Assembly: GCF_005771435.1 (NCBI RefSeq)
Contig: NZ_VANI01000010.1
Location: 62,001 to 126,000, forward strand
Source of the DNA: Microbulbifer harenosus
GTDB taxonomy: Bacteria; Pseudomonadota; Gammaproteobacteria; Pseudomonadales; Cellvibrionaceae
Direction of reading: 5' to 3'
Length of the DNA stretch: 64,000 nucleotides
The first letter of the stretch is position 1; the number at the start of each line of letters is the position of its first letter. The notes beneath the pieces are model-generated. The model worked only from the letters and a program-made list of their open reading frames with translations, searched no databases and was not told the origin of the DNA. The translations under genes and the position numbers were made by a program. This document shows, one piece after another, positions 1 to 49,859 of the stretch.

Positions 1-928
1 GAACGCCGACACCGACGTATTGGGCCTTTACGCCCAGGCCGACTTCACCTTCGCCGACGTCTTCACCCTGACCCCCGGCGTACGCTACGACCGCTTTGAA
101 GCCAAGAGCCAGCAACTGGCGGACTCCGCCCGCGACGACAGCGCAGTGTCGCCATCCCTCACCGCAGCGGTGAAAGCCAGCGACTGGATGACCCTGACCG
201 CCAGCTACGCCAAGGCCTTCCGCGCACCGGGGGTGGAAGAGATGTACACCCAGGGCACGCACTTCTGCTACTTCGGCCCCTTCTGTAACACCTTTATCCC
301 CAATCCGGATCTGGAAGCAGAGGAGGCCCGCAATACCGAGCTGCGTGCGGACTTCGCCTTCCGCGGCCTCGTCAACAGCAACGACGAGCTGACCGCCAGC
401 GCTGCGGTATTCCGCAACAAGGTGGACAATTTTATTGAGCAGTTGGTGGTGAATCCCCACGCCACAATGGGCTTCCCCATGAATACCACGTACCAGAACG
501 TGGACGAAGCGGAGCTGAAGGGGTTTGAACTCGGCGCCAATTATCTGGTGAACGATCTGGCGCTGGGCCTCTCCTACGGCCAGACCGAGGGCCGCGATCT
601 CTCCGACGACAGCTACCTGAGCAATATTCCGGCAGACAAGTGGGTACTGGACCTGGGCTATTACCTCCTGCAGCGCGACCTGAAGGCGGGCCTGCGCACC
701 TCGCTGGTTTCCGCGCAGGAGCAACTGCCGGAATCCGAGACCCGCGAGTTCGACAGCTACACCCTGGCTGACGCCTACGTGACCTGGGAGCCGGCCACCG
801 GCAGCCTGAACGGCCTGAAACTGGCCCTGGCGCTGGACAATCTGGCAGACGAGGAATACCGCGTGGCCTTCCAGGAACTGTATATGCCGGGCCGCAACAT
901 TAAACTGTCCGCGAGCTACCGCTTCTAA
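1..928 (+). CDS. TonB-dependent heme/hemoglobin-type receptor, C-terminal part
   Basis: The gene enters from the left edge; only the C-terminal outer-membrane beta-barrel is visible (about 308 residues, open from the window start). The alternating aromatic strands, the FRAPGVEEMY segment followed by an NPDLEAEEARNTELR stretch, and the terminal aromatic residue (SASYRF) are typical of TonB-dependent receptors of the hemin/hemoglobin group. A Cys pair lies in the loop HFCYFGPFCN. The role fits the neighbours: hutX and hugZ follow on the same strand, so this is probably the outer-membrane heme uptake receptor. Plug domain, TonB box and signal peptide lie outside the window, so the ligand cannot be confirmed; another iron-chelate receptor is possible. 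Confidence 0.82.
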   Translation, partial: NADTDVLGLYAQADFTFADVFTLTPGVRYDRFEAKSQQLADSARDDSAVSPSLTAAVKASDWMTLTASYAKAFRAPGVEEMYTQGTHFCYFGPFCNTFIPNPDLEAEEARNTELRADFAFRGLVNSNDELTASAAVFRNKVDNFIEQLVVNPHATMGFPMNTTYQNVDEAELKGFELGANYLVNDLALGLSYGQTEGRDLSDDSYLSNIPADKWVLDLGYYLLQRDLKAGLRTSLVSAQEQLPESETREFDSYTLADAYVTWEPATGSLNGLKLALALDNLADEEYRVAFQELYMPGRNIKLSASYRF

Positions 929-970
929 TTTCAGCACAGGATTTAGCACGACCTGAGCGGCCCCAGGGGG

Positions 971-1015
971 AATGTTCCGGCAAACGATTGCCGACAGGTT
1001 GTTTGCCGGAGCATT
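971..1015. repeat. Hairpin 1 of a two-hairpin palindromic element
   Basis: A 15-base arm (971-985) pairs with 1001-1015 with one mismatch (a G-T wobble), enclosing a 15-base loop (986-1000, gattgccgacaggtt). The loop is the exact reverse complement of the loop of the second hairpin at 1114-1164. It lies 42 bases after the receptor stop codon. There is no T-run, so it is not a classical rho-independent terminator. Confidence 0.85.
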
Positions 1016-1102
1016 ACCGCTGGGACCGCGCCGCTACGGAGCGCCATTACCCGTGAGTTCCACCCCACTACGGAGCTCCACTACAAGTGAACTCCGTATC
1101 CC

Positions 1103-1175
1103 GCCGAATCAGCGGTGGCCATTGCGCAAACAACCTGTCGGCAATCGTTTGCGCAATGGCCACCACTGCTTCGGC
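1103..1175. repeat. Hairpin 2 of a two-hairpin palindromic element
   Basis: Arms 1114-1131 and 1147-1164 are perfect 18-base reverse complements. The pairing extends outward to 1103/1175 with only two mismatches in 29 positions. The loop 1132-1146 (aacctgtcggcaatc) is the exact reverse complement of the loop of hairpin 1. As a result the 25-base blocks 981-1005 and 1127-1151 form a perfect inverted repeat around a 121-base spacer. The element ends about 37 bases before the hutX start. Within the spacer the word tacggag occurs at 1035 and 1069 and its complement at 1092. Confidence 0.85.
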
Positions 1176-1212
1176 TGGTTTTGTGGTTACTGAAATAGTT
1201 TTGGAATTGCTT

Positions 1213-1725
1213 ATGCAAGAGCAGATAAAAGAATTACTCGACAGTGAATCCGGCTACACGCTGGAAGAGATGGCGGACAAGCTCGACACCAGTGTGCGCG
1301 AGATCATCGCCCAGCTACCCGCGGAGATGGCCTCGCTCGCTGGTGGTGAATACGTCTGGAATTTGATTGAAGAACTGCCCAGCTGGGGCAAGGTCACCAC
1401 CATCGTGCAAAGCGAGGGGTCGGTATTCGAGTTCAAGGGCGAGTTCCCCAAGGGCAACATTGCCCATGGCTACTACAACTTCATGCATCACAAAAGTCCT
1501 TTCCATGGCCACCTGCTGGTGGACGGCATTGTGGAAGTGGCCTTTGTGAGCAAGCCCCACCGCGGCGCGGAGAGCCATTCCATGGTGTTTCTCGCGTCCA
1601 GCGGCAACTGTGCCTTCAAGGTATTTCTGGGCCGGGATACACAGCGCCAGCTGATTCCGGAACAGGTAGCGCGTTTCAAACAGTTAAAGCAGCAGCTGGC
1701 AACCGCCGGCACTGCACATTCCTGA
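1213..1725 (+). CDS. hutX: Heme utilization cytosolic carrier protein HutX
   Basis: A 170-residue soluble protein matching the HutX/HuvX family, which binds heme in the cytoplasm and hands it to the degrading enzyme HutZ/HugZ. Recognisable stretches include LPSWGKVTTIV, the GNIAHGYYNFMHH segment with its conserved histidines, and the C-terminal FKVFLGRDTQRQL. The ATG at 1213 is chosen because it gives the usual family length. Longer in-frame starts would run back through the palindromic element. The gene lies between a heme-type TonB receptor and hugZ (14-base gap), so hutX-hugZ is very likely one transcript. I saw no clear Fur box in 1176-1212. Confidence 0.88.
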   Translation: MQEQIKELLDSESGYTLEEMADKLDTSVREIIAQLPAEMASLAGGEYVWNLIEELPSWGKVTTIVQSEGSVFEFKGEFPKGNIAHGYYNFMHHKSPFHGHLLVDGIVEVAFVSKPHRGAESHSMVFLASSGNCAFKVFLGRDTQRQLIPEQVARFKQLKQQLATAGTAHS

Positions 1726-1739
1726 GGGGGAATCTGACC

Positions 1740-2294
1740 ATGAGCGAACACAAAGCGACACAGGCTGAACATCCAAAAACTGAGGACGGTGCAGATCTGG
1801 TGGCGGAGGTGCGCGATTTTATCGCCACACGAAGACTGCTGAACCTGGCGAGCCTGACGCCAGACGGCTACCCGCACGCGAGCACGGCGCCTTTCCTGGC
1901 GGCGGATGGCAACTTTTACCTGTTTATTTCCGATCTTTCCGAGCATGCGGCGAACCTGAAAGCGCATCGTAAGGCTTCTGTGATATTTAATGCGGACGAG
2001 GCGGATACCAGGCAGGCGTTTGCGCGCTTGCGGGTGACGTTCAACGTGGAGGCGGGAATGATCGGTCGCGAGCTGCCGTTATGGCGGGAGCGCATTGAGC
2101 AACTGCGGGAGAAGTTCGGACCGGTGATGGATCATCTGAAAAATCTCGAGGATTTCCACCTGTTCGAGTTGAAGCCAAGCGCAGGCCGCTATGTAAAGGG
2201 TTTTGGCCAAGCGTATGCACTGGAAGGTCTGGAAAAGCAGGTAGCCCTGCACCTCAAGGACGGCCACCGCGAGAAGGACAGCGACGCGGCCTGA
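1740..2294 (+). CDS. hugZ: Heme utilization/degradation protein HugZ/HutZ (PNPOx-like split barrel)
   Basis: A 184-residue cytosolic protein of the HugZ/HutZ family, which use a flavin-reductase-like split-barrel fold to bind and oxidatively open heme. The family look is clear: an N-terminal helix, then RRLLNLASLTPDGYPHAS with the first barrel strands, YLFISDLSEHAANLK, and the C-terminal FHLFELKPSAGRYVKGFGQAYAL with the glycine/tyrosine-rich end. A purine-rich ribosome site (gaggggga) lies 7-14 bases ahead of the ATG. It is translated directly after hutX. A general pyridoxamine-phosphate-oxidase-like protein is the alternative, but the hutX neighbourhood favours heme use. Confidence 0.87.
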   Translation: MSEHKATQAEHPKTEDGADLVAEVRDFIATRRLLNLASLTPDGYPHASTAPFLAADGNFYLFISDLSEHAANLKAHRKASVIFNADEADTRQAFARLRVTFNVEAGMIGRELPLWRERIEQLREKFGPVMDHLKNLEDFHLFELKPSAGRYVKGFGQAYALEGLEKQVALHLKDGHREKDSDAA

Positions 2295-2343
2295 TCTTTG
2301 CGACGTGATCCAGCGAATCCGGTGGCGGCAAAAAAACTGAAAC

Positions 2344-2370
2344 GCAACTGCAATCGTCAGTTGCTATTTT
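2344..2370 (+). terminator. Possible terminator after hutX-hugZ
   Basis: Arms gcaactg (2344-2350) and cagttgc (2358-2364) form a perfect 7-base-pair stem with a 7-base loop, followed by tatttt. It lies 49 bases after the hugZ stop and before the next gene on the same strand. The stem is modest, so this is only a candidate. Confidence 0.5.
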
Positions 2371-2398
2371 GGTAACAAATAACCAAAGAGTAACCAAC

Positions 2399-2803
2399 AT
2401 GGATTCCCGTAAAGGCTATCTGCTGCCACTCGTTTTTCTCTCCGCCTGCGCCGCCAATCCGGCGCAGCAGCCGCTGACAGCAACCGGTACGCTGGTGCAG
2501 GAGAACGGCAAATATTTTCTGCTGGGGGAGGACAATCGGTATCACCTGAACCGTATGCCGCAGCTGAACTATGAAAAATACCTCGGCTACGAGCTGCTGA
2601 TTCAGGGGGAGATTCCCAGTTACTGCCACCAGGCGTGGCAGGACTCCATCGTGAAGGTGCACGGCGGCGCAGAGATGGTGGACCTGAACCGGGTCGACTG
2701 GTCCGATTGCCTGGAGGCGAACAAGGTGAGCCTGGTGACCGCCGACGGCCCGCGCCTGGTGTACGACTGGGAAAAAATCGACCTGGAAGACTACTACTTC
2801 TGA
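2399..2803 (+). CDS. Small lipoprotein of unknown function
   Basis: A 134-residue protein with a lipoprotein signal: a short charged start (MDSRK), a hydrophobic stretch and the lipobox LSAC, after which the mature protein would begin at the cysteine. The mature part is mainly beta-rich (TGTLVQENGKYFLLGEDNRYHL...YELLIQGEIP), which suggests a small OB-like barrel, but I do not recognise a named family. It contains two further cysteines (near SYCHQ and WSDCLE) that could form a disulfide in the periplasm. The ATG at 2399 is chosen because it starts the signal peptide. It converges with fnr, leaving only a 17-base gap. Confidence 0.75.
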   Translation: MDSRKGYLLPLVFLSACAANPAQQPLTATGTLVQENGKYFLLGEDNRYHLNRMPQLNYEKYLGYELLIQGEIPSYCHQAWQDSIVKVHGGAEMVDLNRVDWSDCLEANKVSLVTADGPRLVYDWEKIDLEDYYF

Positions 2804-2820
2804 TTTTCCGCCCTGCCCGG

Positions 2821-3657
2821 TCAATCGCTGCAGCTGACGCCGGCCAGGGTTGCGAGGCCGGGTTTGTCGAGCAGGGTAATGGCTCTGCCCTGCACCTTGA
2901 TCAGCTCTTGTTTCTGGAAGCGGGAAATCAAGCGGCTGACGGTTTCCGCGGTGAGCCCGAGATAATTGGCGATGTCGATGCGCGGCATGGTGAGGTTGAA
3001 CTCGGTCGCCGAGTAACCGCGCCGCGTGTAGCGCTCGGAGATGTTGATCAACAGGGCCGCCAAACGCGCTTCTGCGGAGCGCTTGCCAAGCAGCATGACC
3101 ACGTCTTTTTCCTGCCGCAGCTCCTCCGAGAAGAGATTGAAAATCTGCTTCTGCAACCCAGGCACCTGCTGCGCGAGGGTTTCCAGCTGCGCAAAGGGCA
3201 ATTCGCACACGCTGCTGTTTTCCAGCGCCTCGGCATAGCTGGGGTGGGCCTGGGTGCTGTAGGCGTCGAGGCCGAGCAGTTCGCCCGGCAGCGCGAAGTG
3301 AGTGACCTGGGCGCTGCCATCGGCGGCGATGACCACAGACTTGAAACTACCGGAGCGGATGGCGTACAGGCTGGTGAATTTGTCGCCAGCGCGAAACAAC
3401 TGATCGCCGGCTTTGATCACGGTTTTCTTGCGGGTGATCTGTTCGAGACGGTCAATATCCTGCGCAGTAAGGCCCGCGGGAAGGCACAGCGCCCTGACCG
3501 AGCAGTTGCTGCAACTGACCTTTGAGATCTGTTCCGCCGATTTTTTCTCATTACTCAAACCGATCACTCTCCCGGCGGCCACTCTAGTTACCGCTTTGCT
3601 GCTGAACCGCACCGCGTTGACTCCCTCTGGCAAATTGTATCCTCCCTGTCTAGTCAT
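2821..3657 (-). CDS. fnr: FNR/ANR-type oxygen-sensing transcriptional regulator
   Basis: A CRP/FNR-family regulator (278 residues from the ATG). The N-terminal cysteines C49, C52 and C58 show the same C-x2-C-x5-C spacing as E. coli FNR. A fourth cysteine, C151 (SSVCELPF), sits 93 residues further on, also as in E. coli, so a [4Fe-4S] oxygen sensor is expected. The helix-turn-helix reads LGLTAETVSRLISRF, with the E-x2-SR residues that read TTGAT. Its ATG overlaps the hemN stop by four bases (ATGA), indicating a hemN-fnr operon. A TTG at 3558, preceded by a better ribosome site (gggaga), would give 245 residues, closer to the E. coli length. Confidence 0.92.
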   Translation of the reverse strand: MTRQGGYNLPEGVNAVRFSSKAVTRVAAGRVIGLSNEKKSAEQISKVSCSNCSVRALCLPAGLTAQDIDRLEQITRKKTVIKAGDQLFRAGDKFTSLYAIRSGSFKSVVIAADGSAQVTHFALPGELLGLDAYSTQAHPSYAEALENSSVCELPFAQLETLAQQVPGLQKQIFNLFSEELRQEKDVVMLLGKRSAEARLAALLINISERYTRRGYSATEFNLTMPRIDIANYLGLTAETVSRLISRFQKQELIKVQGRAITLLDKPGLATLAGVSCSD

Positions 3658-5054
3658 AACACCCGCGAATAGCGCCCGCCGCTGCCGCTGCGGTGCAGGT
3701 GCGCATCGAATGCGGCGGCCACATTGCGCAGGAACCAGCGCCCGCGCTCGCTGACGTGAAGACCAATCTCATCCAGCGCCACCAGACCGTCATCGACCAT
3801 CGGCTGCAGGCGCGCCAGCTCGTCGTGGAAGTAGTGCTCAAAGGGCGCGCCGGTGCGCGATTCCACCGCCCCCCGCTCCACGCGCAACCGACACATCAGT
3901 TCCATAATGAGCCACTGGCGCAGGCGGTCGTCGTCACTCAGCTTCCAACCGCGGGAAATGGCGTTGCCACATCCGCCCACCGCCGCGGTGTAATCCTTGA
4001 CGCCGTGCTGGTTCTGCCAGTAGCCGTCACGGCTGTAGCTGATGGCGGAGGCACCCAGGCCGATCAGCGCATCCGCCGGCATCAGGGTGTATCCCTGGAA
4101 GTTGCGCGCGAGGCGCCCTTCGGCGGCAGCTTGCGCCATGCCGTCGTCCGGCCGCGCGAAATGGTCCATACCGAGAAAGTGGTAGCCCGCCCCCGTCAGC
4201 CGCCGGGTGGCGGCAAGCTGCATGGCGATCTTGTCGGCAGGTGGGGGAATCAGATCCGAGCTGATCAGGCGCTGGGCCTTGAAGCGCTGCGGCAGGTGGG
4301 CGTAGTGGTACAGCGCGATGCGGTCAGGGGCGTGCTCCAACACAATGTCGATGGTCTGCTCCAGGCTCGTCACGCTCTGCCCCGGAAGTCCGTAAATCAG
4401 ATCGTAGGAGATGGAACGAAAGCCCCGCGCCCGCGCACCCTCAGTCAGTGCAAGGACGTCTTCAGGGGGGCAGATTCGGTTGACGGCCCGTTGCACAGCC
4501 GGATTGAAATCCTGAATCCCCATGCTCAAGCGGTTGAAGCCGAGGCGCCGCAAGTTGTCCAGCGTGTGCGGTGCGAGGGTGCGCGGGTCCGCTTCCACGC
4601 TGTACTCAACATCGTCCCCGACCTGCAACGGGAAGACTTCACCGAGACCAAGGATCAACCGCTCAAGGTCGCCGTCGTTAAGGAACGTTGGGGTGCCGCC
4701 GCCGAGATGCAGCTGGGTCACAGGCGCCTCGACGACACAATCGCGATACCAGCGCGCCTCTCGCAACACAGTCTCCAGGTAACTCGCTGCGGAATCGTAC
4801 CTTTTGGTGACAACCTTGTTGCAGGCGCAGAAGTAGCAAAGGGAGCGGCAGAATGGTATGTGCACATAAAGAGACAAGGTCTGCGCTTGTTGCAACGCCG
4901 CCCAAGGCGGCGCACCGGAGCTACCCCCGCGCGCGTGCATAGGCACAAAGCGGTCGGCAGAGGGGTAAGAGGTATAGCGCGGGCACGGGCCGGCATAGCG
5001 CTCCAAGAGCTCGGGCGTAAGCAATGCCGGCGAACTCAGTTCCGCAGTTTCCAT
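3654..5054 (-). CDS. hemN: Oxygen-independent coproporphyrinogen III oxidase (radical SAM)
   Basis: A 466-residue HemN: converts coproporphyrinogen III to protoporphyrinogen IX without oxygen, in the cytoplasm. The radical-SAM cluster motif is visible in HIPFCRSLCYFCACN (C-x3-C-x2-C), followed by LHLGGGTPTFL, the SVEADPRT strand and RLSMGIQDFNPAVQ. The N-terminal RYTSYPSADRF segment is typical of HemN rather than of HemW-like paralogs. It is the first gene of a two-gene unit with fnr. A perfect FNR box sits about 90 bases upstream, so induction at low oxygen is likely and fits the enzyme's role. Confidence 0.95.
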   Translation of the reverse strand: METAELSSPALLTPELLERYAGPCPRYTSYPSADRFVPMHARGGSSGAPPWAALQQAQTLSLYVHIPFCRSLCYFCACNKVVTKRYDSAASYLETVLREARWYRDCVVEAPVTQLHLGGGTPTFLNDGDLERLILGLGEVFPLQVGDDVEYSVEADPRTLAPHTLDNLRRLGFNRLSMGIQDFNPAVQRAVNRICPPEDVLALTEGARARGFRSISYDLIYGLPGQSVTSLEQTIDIVLEHAPDRIALYHYAHLPQRFKAQRLISSDLIPPPADKIAMQLAATRRLTGAGYHFLGMDHFARPDDGMAQAAAEGRLARNFQGYTLMPADALIGLGASAISYSRDGYWQNQHGVKDYTAAVGGCGNAISRGWKLSDDDRLRQWLIMELMCRLRVERGAVESRTGAPFEHYFHDELARLQPMVDDGLVALDEIGLHVSERGRWFLRNVAAAFDAHLHRSGSGGRYSRVL

Positions 5055-49788: not shown

Positions 49789-49859
49789 GTAGGAGCCTGC
49801 CTGCAGACGAACTTTTCTGGTTCTGTGCGTGCTCGGTTCGCCTGTAGGCAGGCTCCTAC
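49789..49859. repeat. REPIN-like inverted repeat
   Basis: Two 24-base arms (49789-49812 and 49836-49859) are inverted copies with two mismatches, around a 23-base spacer. Each begins gtaggagcctgcct and ends cgaac, very like the REP sequences of Pseudomonas (gtaggagc...cgaa). A single related copy lies at 34808. Such pairs are usually spread by a REP-associated tyrosine transposase encoded elsewhere. Confidence 0.85.

Follow-up and report, generated by a model that had tools for sequence, protein, structure and literature searches.

Two long hairpins, H1 and H2, occupy the gap between a TonB-dependent receptor gene and hutX, and we read them, with a probability of roughly one-half, as head-to-head copies of a nonautonomous, REP-like, mostly extragenic hairpin repeat (type A) whose tip is recognized, probably in the form of single-stranded DNA. 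REP-type repeats are the best-known short mobile palindromes of bacteria. An earlier note on this DNA had proposed that the two hairpins form an RNA switch, an invertible segment, or a mobile palindromic element, and its interpretation as a whole is partly supported. The third reading is the best among them: searching the host genome and its relatives for copies, as the note had suggested, uncovered a dispersed family of which H1 and H2 are both members, and the symmetry that the note described comes from a single tip motif that occurs in two head-to-head copies.

The hairpin pair in the receptor-hutX gap

The window, i.e., the whole 64-kb stretch analyzed here, belongs to a 4.67-Mb genome (G000) of the genus Microbulbifer. 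Its receptor-hutX gap extends from position 929 to 1212, between the C-terminal part of the TonB-dependent receptor (2 to 928, + strand; Pfam PF00593) and hutX (1213 to 1725, + strand; Pfam PF06228). H1 (957 to 1029; inverted repeat I3 and fold) carries its tip on the + strand and H2 (1100 to 1178; inverted repeat I1 and fold) on the − strand, and the type-A covariance model matches them at G000:C1:62955-63033 (+) and G000:C1:63099-63177 (−). The stems are long, as the earlier note had recognized, but they extend beyond the limits that it gave. Similarly, its perfect inverted repeat is exact but measures 27 nt rather than 25 nt: the cores of H1 (980 to 1006, + strand) and H2 (1126 to 1152, − strand) are exact reverse complements (repeat I2, 100%; fold) with 119 nt between them. 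The H1 core contains the bulge ATT at 987 to 989 and the loop GACA at 993 to 996, and the H2 core, read on the − strand, has its bulge at 1143 to 1145 and its loop at 1136 to 1139. The spacer (1026 to 1093, + strand; repeat D1) is made of two 34-nt direct units, 74% alike, that bear CTACGGAGC; strings related to CTACGGAGC/CTTACGAAGC trail several other type-A copies, as judged by eye from their flanks.

Both the inverted repeats and the folding confirm that the two hairpins are real. H1 and H2 are the top two palindromes of the window, with 22 to 23 and 21 Watson-Crick pairs in a scan using 25-bp arms and a loop of 13 or 15 nt; ten shuffled windows (first-order Markov) reached maxima of 16 to 19 pairs in the same scan. 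RNA folding of positions 940 to 1200 yielded z scores of −8.9 (+ strand) and −9.0 (− strand), with 0 of 200 shuffles equally stable on either strand. The minimum-energy RNA fold consists of the two local hairpins, and the long-range 27-bp pairing is not formed.

Because the pair sits between two heme genes, it might serve as a local regulatory device, such as an attenuator, a kissing-loop switch, or an invertible segment. Among the 16 genomes that contain the receptor, 8 carry H1 and H2 head to head (by eye), such that the symmetry is conserved in relatives sharing the gene order, and the pair has been retained in these genomes with compensatory changes in place. The H1 orthologues (n = 8) contain 26 double-change cells versus 8.6 ± 2.2 when shuffled, and the H2 orthologues (n = 9, 8 of them distinct) contain 8 versus 2.6 ± 1.2; in neither case did any of 500 shuffles reach the observed number, although kinship of the sequences can inflate such tests. 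Slid controls at this locus gave at most 5 double-change cells for H1 and 1 for H2. Stable folds and covariation, which the earlier note had suggested looking for, are both present. The remaining genomes argue against a local device: the hairpins are absent from 5 of the 16, and three others have instead a lone hairpin interpretable as H1 and H2 fused by a deletion (G022), a tipless remnant (G006), or a different, type-B hairpin (L234, in G007), all as judged by eye.

Moreover, the partner loops are identical in 4 of the 8 pairs and different in the other 4, indicating that the conserved feature is the tip motif and not exact complementarity, and arguing against a kissing-loop switch. An inversion between the cores would swap the inner arms and spoil both stems, so the invertible segment is not supported by genome comparison: in the 8 orthologous loci with the pair, pairing is retained in both stems (87.5% and 90.7% of cells), and the inverted arrangement occurs in 0 of 8. 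Given also that the identical element type adjoins many unrelated genes, a device local to the heme genes is very unlikely. The pair is best explained as a long-standing resident of the receptor-hutX gap that has been inherited vertically and for which any regulatory role is only putative.

Anatomy and distribution of the type-A repeat

Type-A hairpins have a nearly constant tip, AACGATTGCC-GNN(N)A-GGYTGT, containing a 3-nt bulge and a 4- to 5-nt loop, below which lies a stem of ~30 bp whose sequence is free to drift; the whole element is ~80 nt long. The tip helix (GCC/GGY) is short, and the first loop base is G and the last is A. In DNA, closure of the C-GNNA-G type gives loops of unusual stability, a property that our literature search did not confirm. 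Of the 121 hairpins collected from 80 loci (see below), 97 measure 80 nt and have sufficient flanking sequence; filtering at 85% identity leaves 89. Throughout these 89 copies, both T's of the bulge, the G of the loop, and the GG that follows the loop are invariant, and the A of the loop is present in 88. There is a second conserved box (GG/CC) ~14 bp above the stem base, and many copies have a tandem G-A/A-G mismatch at positions 27-28/51-52 that is Watson-Crick paired in others. Some copies bear an enlarged tip. In the 30 copies, found by tip pattern, from which the covariance model was built, 87.6% of cells are paired, and there are 290 double-change cells versus 102 ± 9 when shuffled. Conservation outside the hairpin fades over ~10 nt, and an outer stem continuing past the hairpin was rejected, as the 89 copies show no strong covariation there.

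Exact matches to the central 17 nt of the tip are present at 7 sites in G000, all of which sit in a long inverted repeat with differing stems, the one at C42:417936 being without its outer left arm. A 20-nt core allowing up to 2 mismatches was found in 13 of 48 genomes of the genus (reversed control, 0). The covariance model, searched against genomes with stricter filters and counting some hairpins on both strands (up to 49 matches, in G036), matched 33 of the 48 genus genomes at an E value of up to 0.01 and 34 of 144 family genomes at up to 0.001, representing 2 of 32 genera. The second genus is that of G054, whose copies share the type-A tip with an enlarged loop; at L319, L321, L322, and L323 in this genome, type-A relatives form short clusters of mixed orientation in which the loop is extended by an additional hairpin. 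A search across the class matched 6 of 369 genomes, namely, G000 and five with a single, candidate two-mismatch hit. Of 20 stretches from genome_contigs, 9 were hairpins of Microbulbifer; the other 11 came from different groups and lacked a type-A stem. Carriage by phages or plasmids was not seen, with no type-A match in viral_contigs, plasmids, or phages.

The 80 loci, from 8 genomes (1.007 Mb), gave 164 model matches, reduced to 121 hairpins after the weaker strand was removed. Based on gene positions from a codon-based gene caller made for this analysis, only 3 hairpins are contained in a predicted gene, another 10 extend into a gene end by at most 57 bases, and the rest are extragenic. When arrays are collapsed, the copies occupy 99 places, of which 43 are antisense and 35 are sense to co-directional neighbors, 16 are convergent, 4 are divergent, and 1 is unassigned. 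Copies are therefore antisense to their neighbors as often as sense, which further weakens the RNA-switch reading. The neighbors are many unrelated genes; recurrent clusters near the hairpins were considered as a source of a partner protein and rejected, as they resemble ordinary conserved genes (first 70 residues, by eye).

Type-A copies occur as singles, inverted pairs, and tandem arrays. The arrays include 5 units of ~170 bp and 6 units of ~124 bp in G036 (L122 and L123) and 7 units of ~134 bp in G035 (L124), and an identical 80-nt unit is present at two separate loci of G035 (L221 and L223). Presence also differs between species. Tandem arrays, identical units, and presence/absence differences show that this is a repeat that multiplies. 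Many copies are old and orthologous, in agreement with vertical inheritance, and no clean empty site was recovered in six alignments between G008 and G019 or in eight further alignments (two of them repeating earlier cases), from which two misaligned comparisons against L245 were excluded.

Several individual loci record rearrangements at hairpins. An orthologous hairpin of G008 and G019 (L162:8986-9065 and L171:7410-7506) has its tip flipped and of a different subtype in the sister genome. At L158:7465-7562 (G008), an enlarged-tip type-A copy lies between two inverted GTAG-REP-like sequences, and the block is missing from G019. At L011 (G000:C42:417000-421500), ~76 nt comprising the tip and the right arm are common to two type-A copies of like orientation, between which lie two genes that match no Pfam family. 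The frames on the outer sides match an RND transporter and an RNA methyltransferase; this arrangement could be due to recombination at the hairpin.

Strand asymmetry of wobble pairs

Within the inner ~17 bp of the type-A stem, one strand is favored, on which G-T pairs are tolerated and A-C pairs are not. Read on the tip strand, the stems of the 89 copies contain 93 G-T and 34 A-C pairs overall, and 57 versus 4 in the inner stem, whereas the basal stem has no strand bias (36 versus 30). To guard against bias from the model, copies were also detected by the tip alone (112 finds, of which 57 were nonredundant and 54 had at least 15 of 30 Watson-Crick pairs), and these 54 copies displayed the same pattern, with 44 G-T versus 2 A-C in the inner 17 bp and 73 versus 43 in the whole stem. 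The 30 copies in the model alignment have 27 G-T and 3 A-C pairs in the inner stem, and 8 and 13, respectively, in the basal stem. The inner-stem bias goes with the element and not with the host transcript: the inner stems of 32 copies that are antisense to both neighbors have 25 G-T and 0 A-C pairs, and those of 31 sense copies have 19 and 3, bearing in mind that the copies are related and that these wobble and orientation counts are not of independent events. As a control, 53 type-B elements had no bias (58 G-T to 56 A-C).

The simplest cause of this bias is a functional single strand of the element itself, to which both single-stranded DNA and an RNA driven by the element conform. DNA folding also differs between the strands, the tip strand being the more stable for both H1 (−30.0 versus −23.8 kcal/mol for the complement) and H2 (−39.2 versus −33.0 kcal/mol).

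The wobble excess suits RNA as well as it does single-stranded DNA. The tip strand might be transcribed, whether from its own promoter or because spread proceeds through an RNA intermediate, with recognition and selection acting on the folded RNA; tolerance of G-U together with avoidance of A-C is a classic mark of RNA structure, and two G-U pairs of the tip hardly vary (28 and 29 of 30 copies). Opposing such an RNA element, the bias is undiminished in antisense copies, a crude scan of window positions 850 to 1300 found no match to a sigma-70-type promoter or a terminator, and Rfam 15 yielded nothing at the gathering score in window positions 1 to 5000, where five weak matches below that score are of the miRNA-hairpin kind. 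Since the antisense copies keep the bias and no promoter-like site was seen, single-stranded DNA is favored, and we regard an RNA element as somewhat unlikely.

Less probable still is that these are passive palindromes, i.e., old inverted repeats kept perfect by template switching or by repair templated on the hairpin and disseminated through ordinary recombination and duplication with no dedicated enzyme. Such a process would accommodate the tandem duplications, the inversion and exchange of tips at orthologous places, and the basal stems without strand bias, but it leaves unexplained both the near-invariant unpaired bases of the tip and the strand-specific wobbles of the inner stem.

Under the preferred reading of a tip-recognized mobile repeat, the tip strand would be recognized at the tip as folded single-stranded DNA by a putative structure-specific protein that reads the tip and spreads the element, by analogy with REP/TnpA-REP or IS200/IS605 hairpins, and the stem would serve mainly as a scaffold. 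Replication provides a further consideration. IS200/IS605-type elements use the lagging-strand template. Among 73 type-A copies placed on replichores, the tip strand runs opposite to fork movement in 49 and along it in 24, a skew driven by G036 (23:5) and G008 (10:2), with ratios of 10:9 in G035 and 2:4 in G010. In the opposite orientation, the leading-strand template carries the tip strand, which is a poor fit with the simplest lagging-strand-template model.

Counting G-T versus A-C pairs is a simple way to learn which of the two strands is the important one in a palindromic repeat, and it distinguishes whether selection acts on the host mRNA or on the element.

Relation to REP sequences and to type-B hairpins

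In general kind, type A is a dispersed extragenic palindromic repeat (121 hairpins, 80 loci, 8 genomes). It resembles REP/BIME sequences and their TnpA-REP (RAYT) proteins in comprising extragenic palindromes, inverted pairs, and clusters and in having a bulge and loop that matter; TnpA-REP is described as acting on one strand of folded single-stranded DNA (PMC8266576). REPs are described as 20 to 40 bp long, with 5- to 13-bp stems and a GTAG or CGTC tag (PMC3733652). In contrast, type A is ~80 nt long with a stem of ~30 bp, and a GTAG/CGTC tag is absent from the foot of the palindrome, where the consensus 5′ flank of the 89 copies is gATGcGA-AGGCC. Like type A, REPINs are long hairpin units of similar size, and compensatory changes are reported to be common in them (PMC3116915). 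They differ, however, in that REPINs are described as having two invariant ends and a variable spacer (PMC3116915), whereas the tip of type A is near-invariant and its stem is variable. By these tested features, type A is of a REP-like kind but is neither a REP nor a REPIN, and the mechanism proposed for it is one that we infer.

The window itself contains a REP-like palindrome with GTAG ends at 49789 to 49859, GTAGGAGCC...GGCTCCTAC. Y1 transposase matches are present in 45 of the 48 genus genomes, including all 15 that lack type A, and are absent from 3 of the 33 that have it. RAYT was rejected as the partner, there being 0 type-A matches (E value of up to 1) in 20 Y1 loci covering 133,520 bases. 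Of 8 Y1 loci examined for inverted repeats, 2 (L249, G000:C11:125500-132000, and L255, G008:C9:237500-244000) have REP-like palindromes on either side of a RAYT-like Y1 gene. At G000:C2:130855-131727 (L248), a 339-amino-acid frame matches Y1_Tnp and the DnaA C-terminal domain, and similar frames occur in G010, G023, and G035. This DnaA_C-Y1 fusion was likewise rejected as a partner, as it is present in 4 of 16 searched genomes (G000 and the three just named) and is missing from the copy-rich G036, G008, and G019.

Integron attC sites and the ends of IS200/IS605 elements are also similar to type A in being folded single strands whose unpaired bases are read by a recombinase. No attC boxes were seen in type A, and resemblances to attC and to hammerheads were considered and dropped. 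No linked integrase or transposase was found for type A, nor was a protein partner of any other kind.

A scan of 1.07 Mb for long palindromes revealed a second hairpin family, type B, with a long stem and a 52-nt tip, GTGAATACATCCNTGTANGCT, that has two side hairpins. We know of no established name for these hairpins. Type B resembles type A in combining a long, free stem with a conserved tip and differs in that its tip is two-armed and its stems are without strand bias. Examples are at L161:10498-10603, L178:5593-5692, and L182:5510-5615, in the hut gap of G007 (L234), and elsewhere. With up to 1 mismatch, the type-B tip string is present in 39 of 272 genera, corresponding to 42 of 369 genomes, of the Gammaproteobacteria (0 for the reversed control); a single genome has 370 sites, and G000 has 51. 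Of 20 type-B loci fetched from other genera, 15 pass the stem cut, and their stems are unrelated in sequence. The complement of one type-B side hairpin, TACAKGGATGTA, is near the CsrA SELEX consensus, RUACARGGAUGU (PMC7652899), and the lack of strand bias in type-B stems speaks against a simple RNA role. Types A and B lie side by side at several places in Microbulbifer and have a mid-stem CCGG box in common (by eye).

Neither tip is described in the literature listings and abstract openings searched, where a sequence-string search covered part of the type-B tip. The 92 stem-loop families of Cozzuto 2008 (PMC2267715) could include a relative of these tips. The novelty of type A rests on these literature searches and the Rfam scan.

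Type A could represent the local form of a more general design. Tentatively, and as a possibility to which we assign less than even odds, types A and B could be two lineages within a so far undescribed class of gammaproteobacterial mobile hairpins. The conserved tip of such hairpins would be the address for a trans-acting, RAYT-independent enzyme working on folded single strands, and the stem would be a scaffold of free sequence that is renewed through compensatory or templated changes. If true, this class would amount to a REP-like system turned inside out. The pattern of conservation in type A, opposite to that of REP-type repeats, together with the finding of no transposase alongside, points to another route by which hairpins are recognized and spread, and the occurrence of the related type-B tip in 42 of the 369 gammaproteobacterial genomes suggests that the design is widespread.
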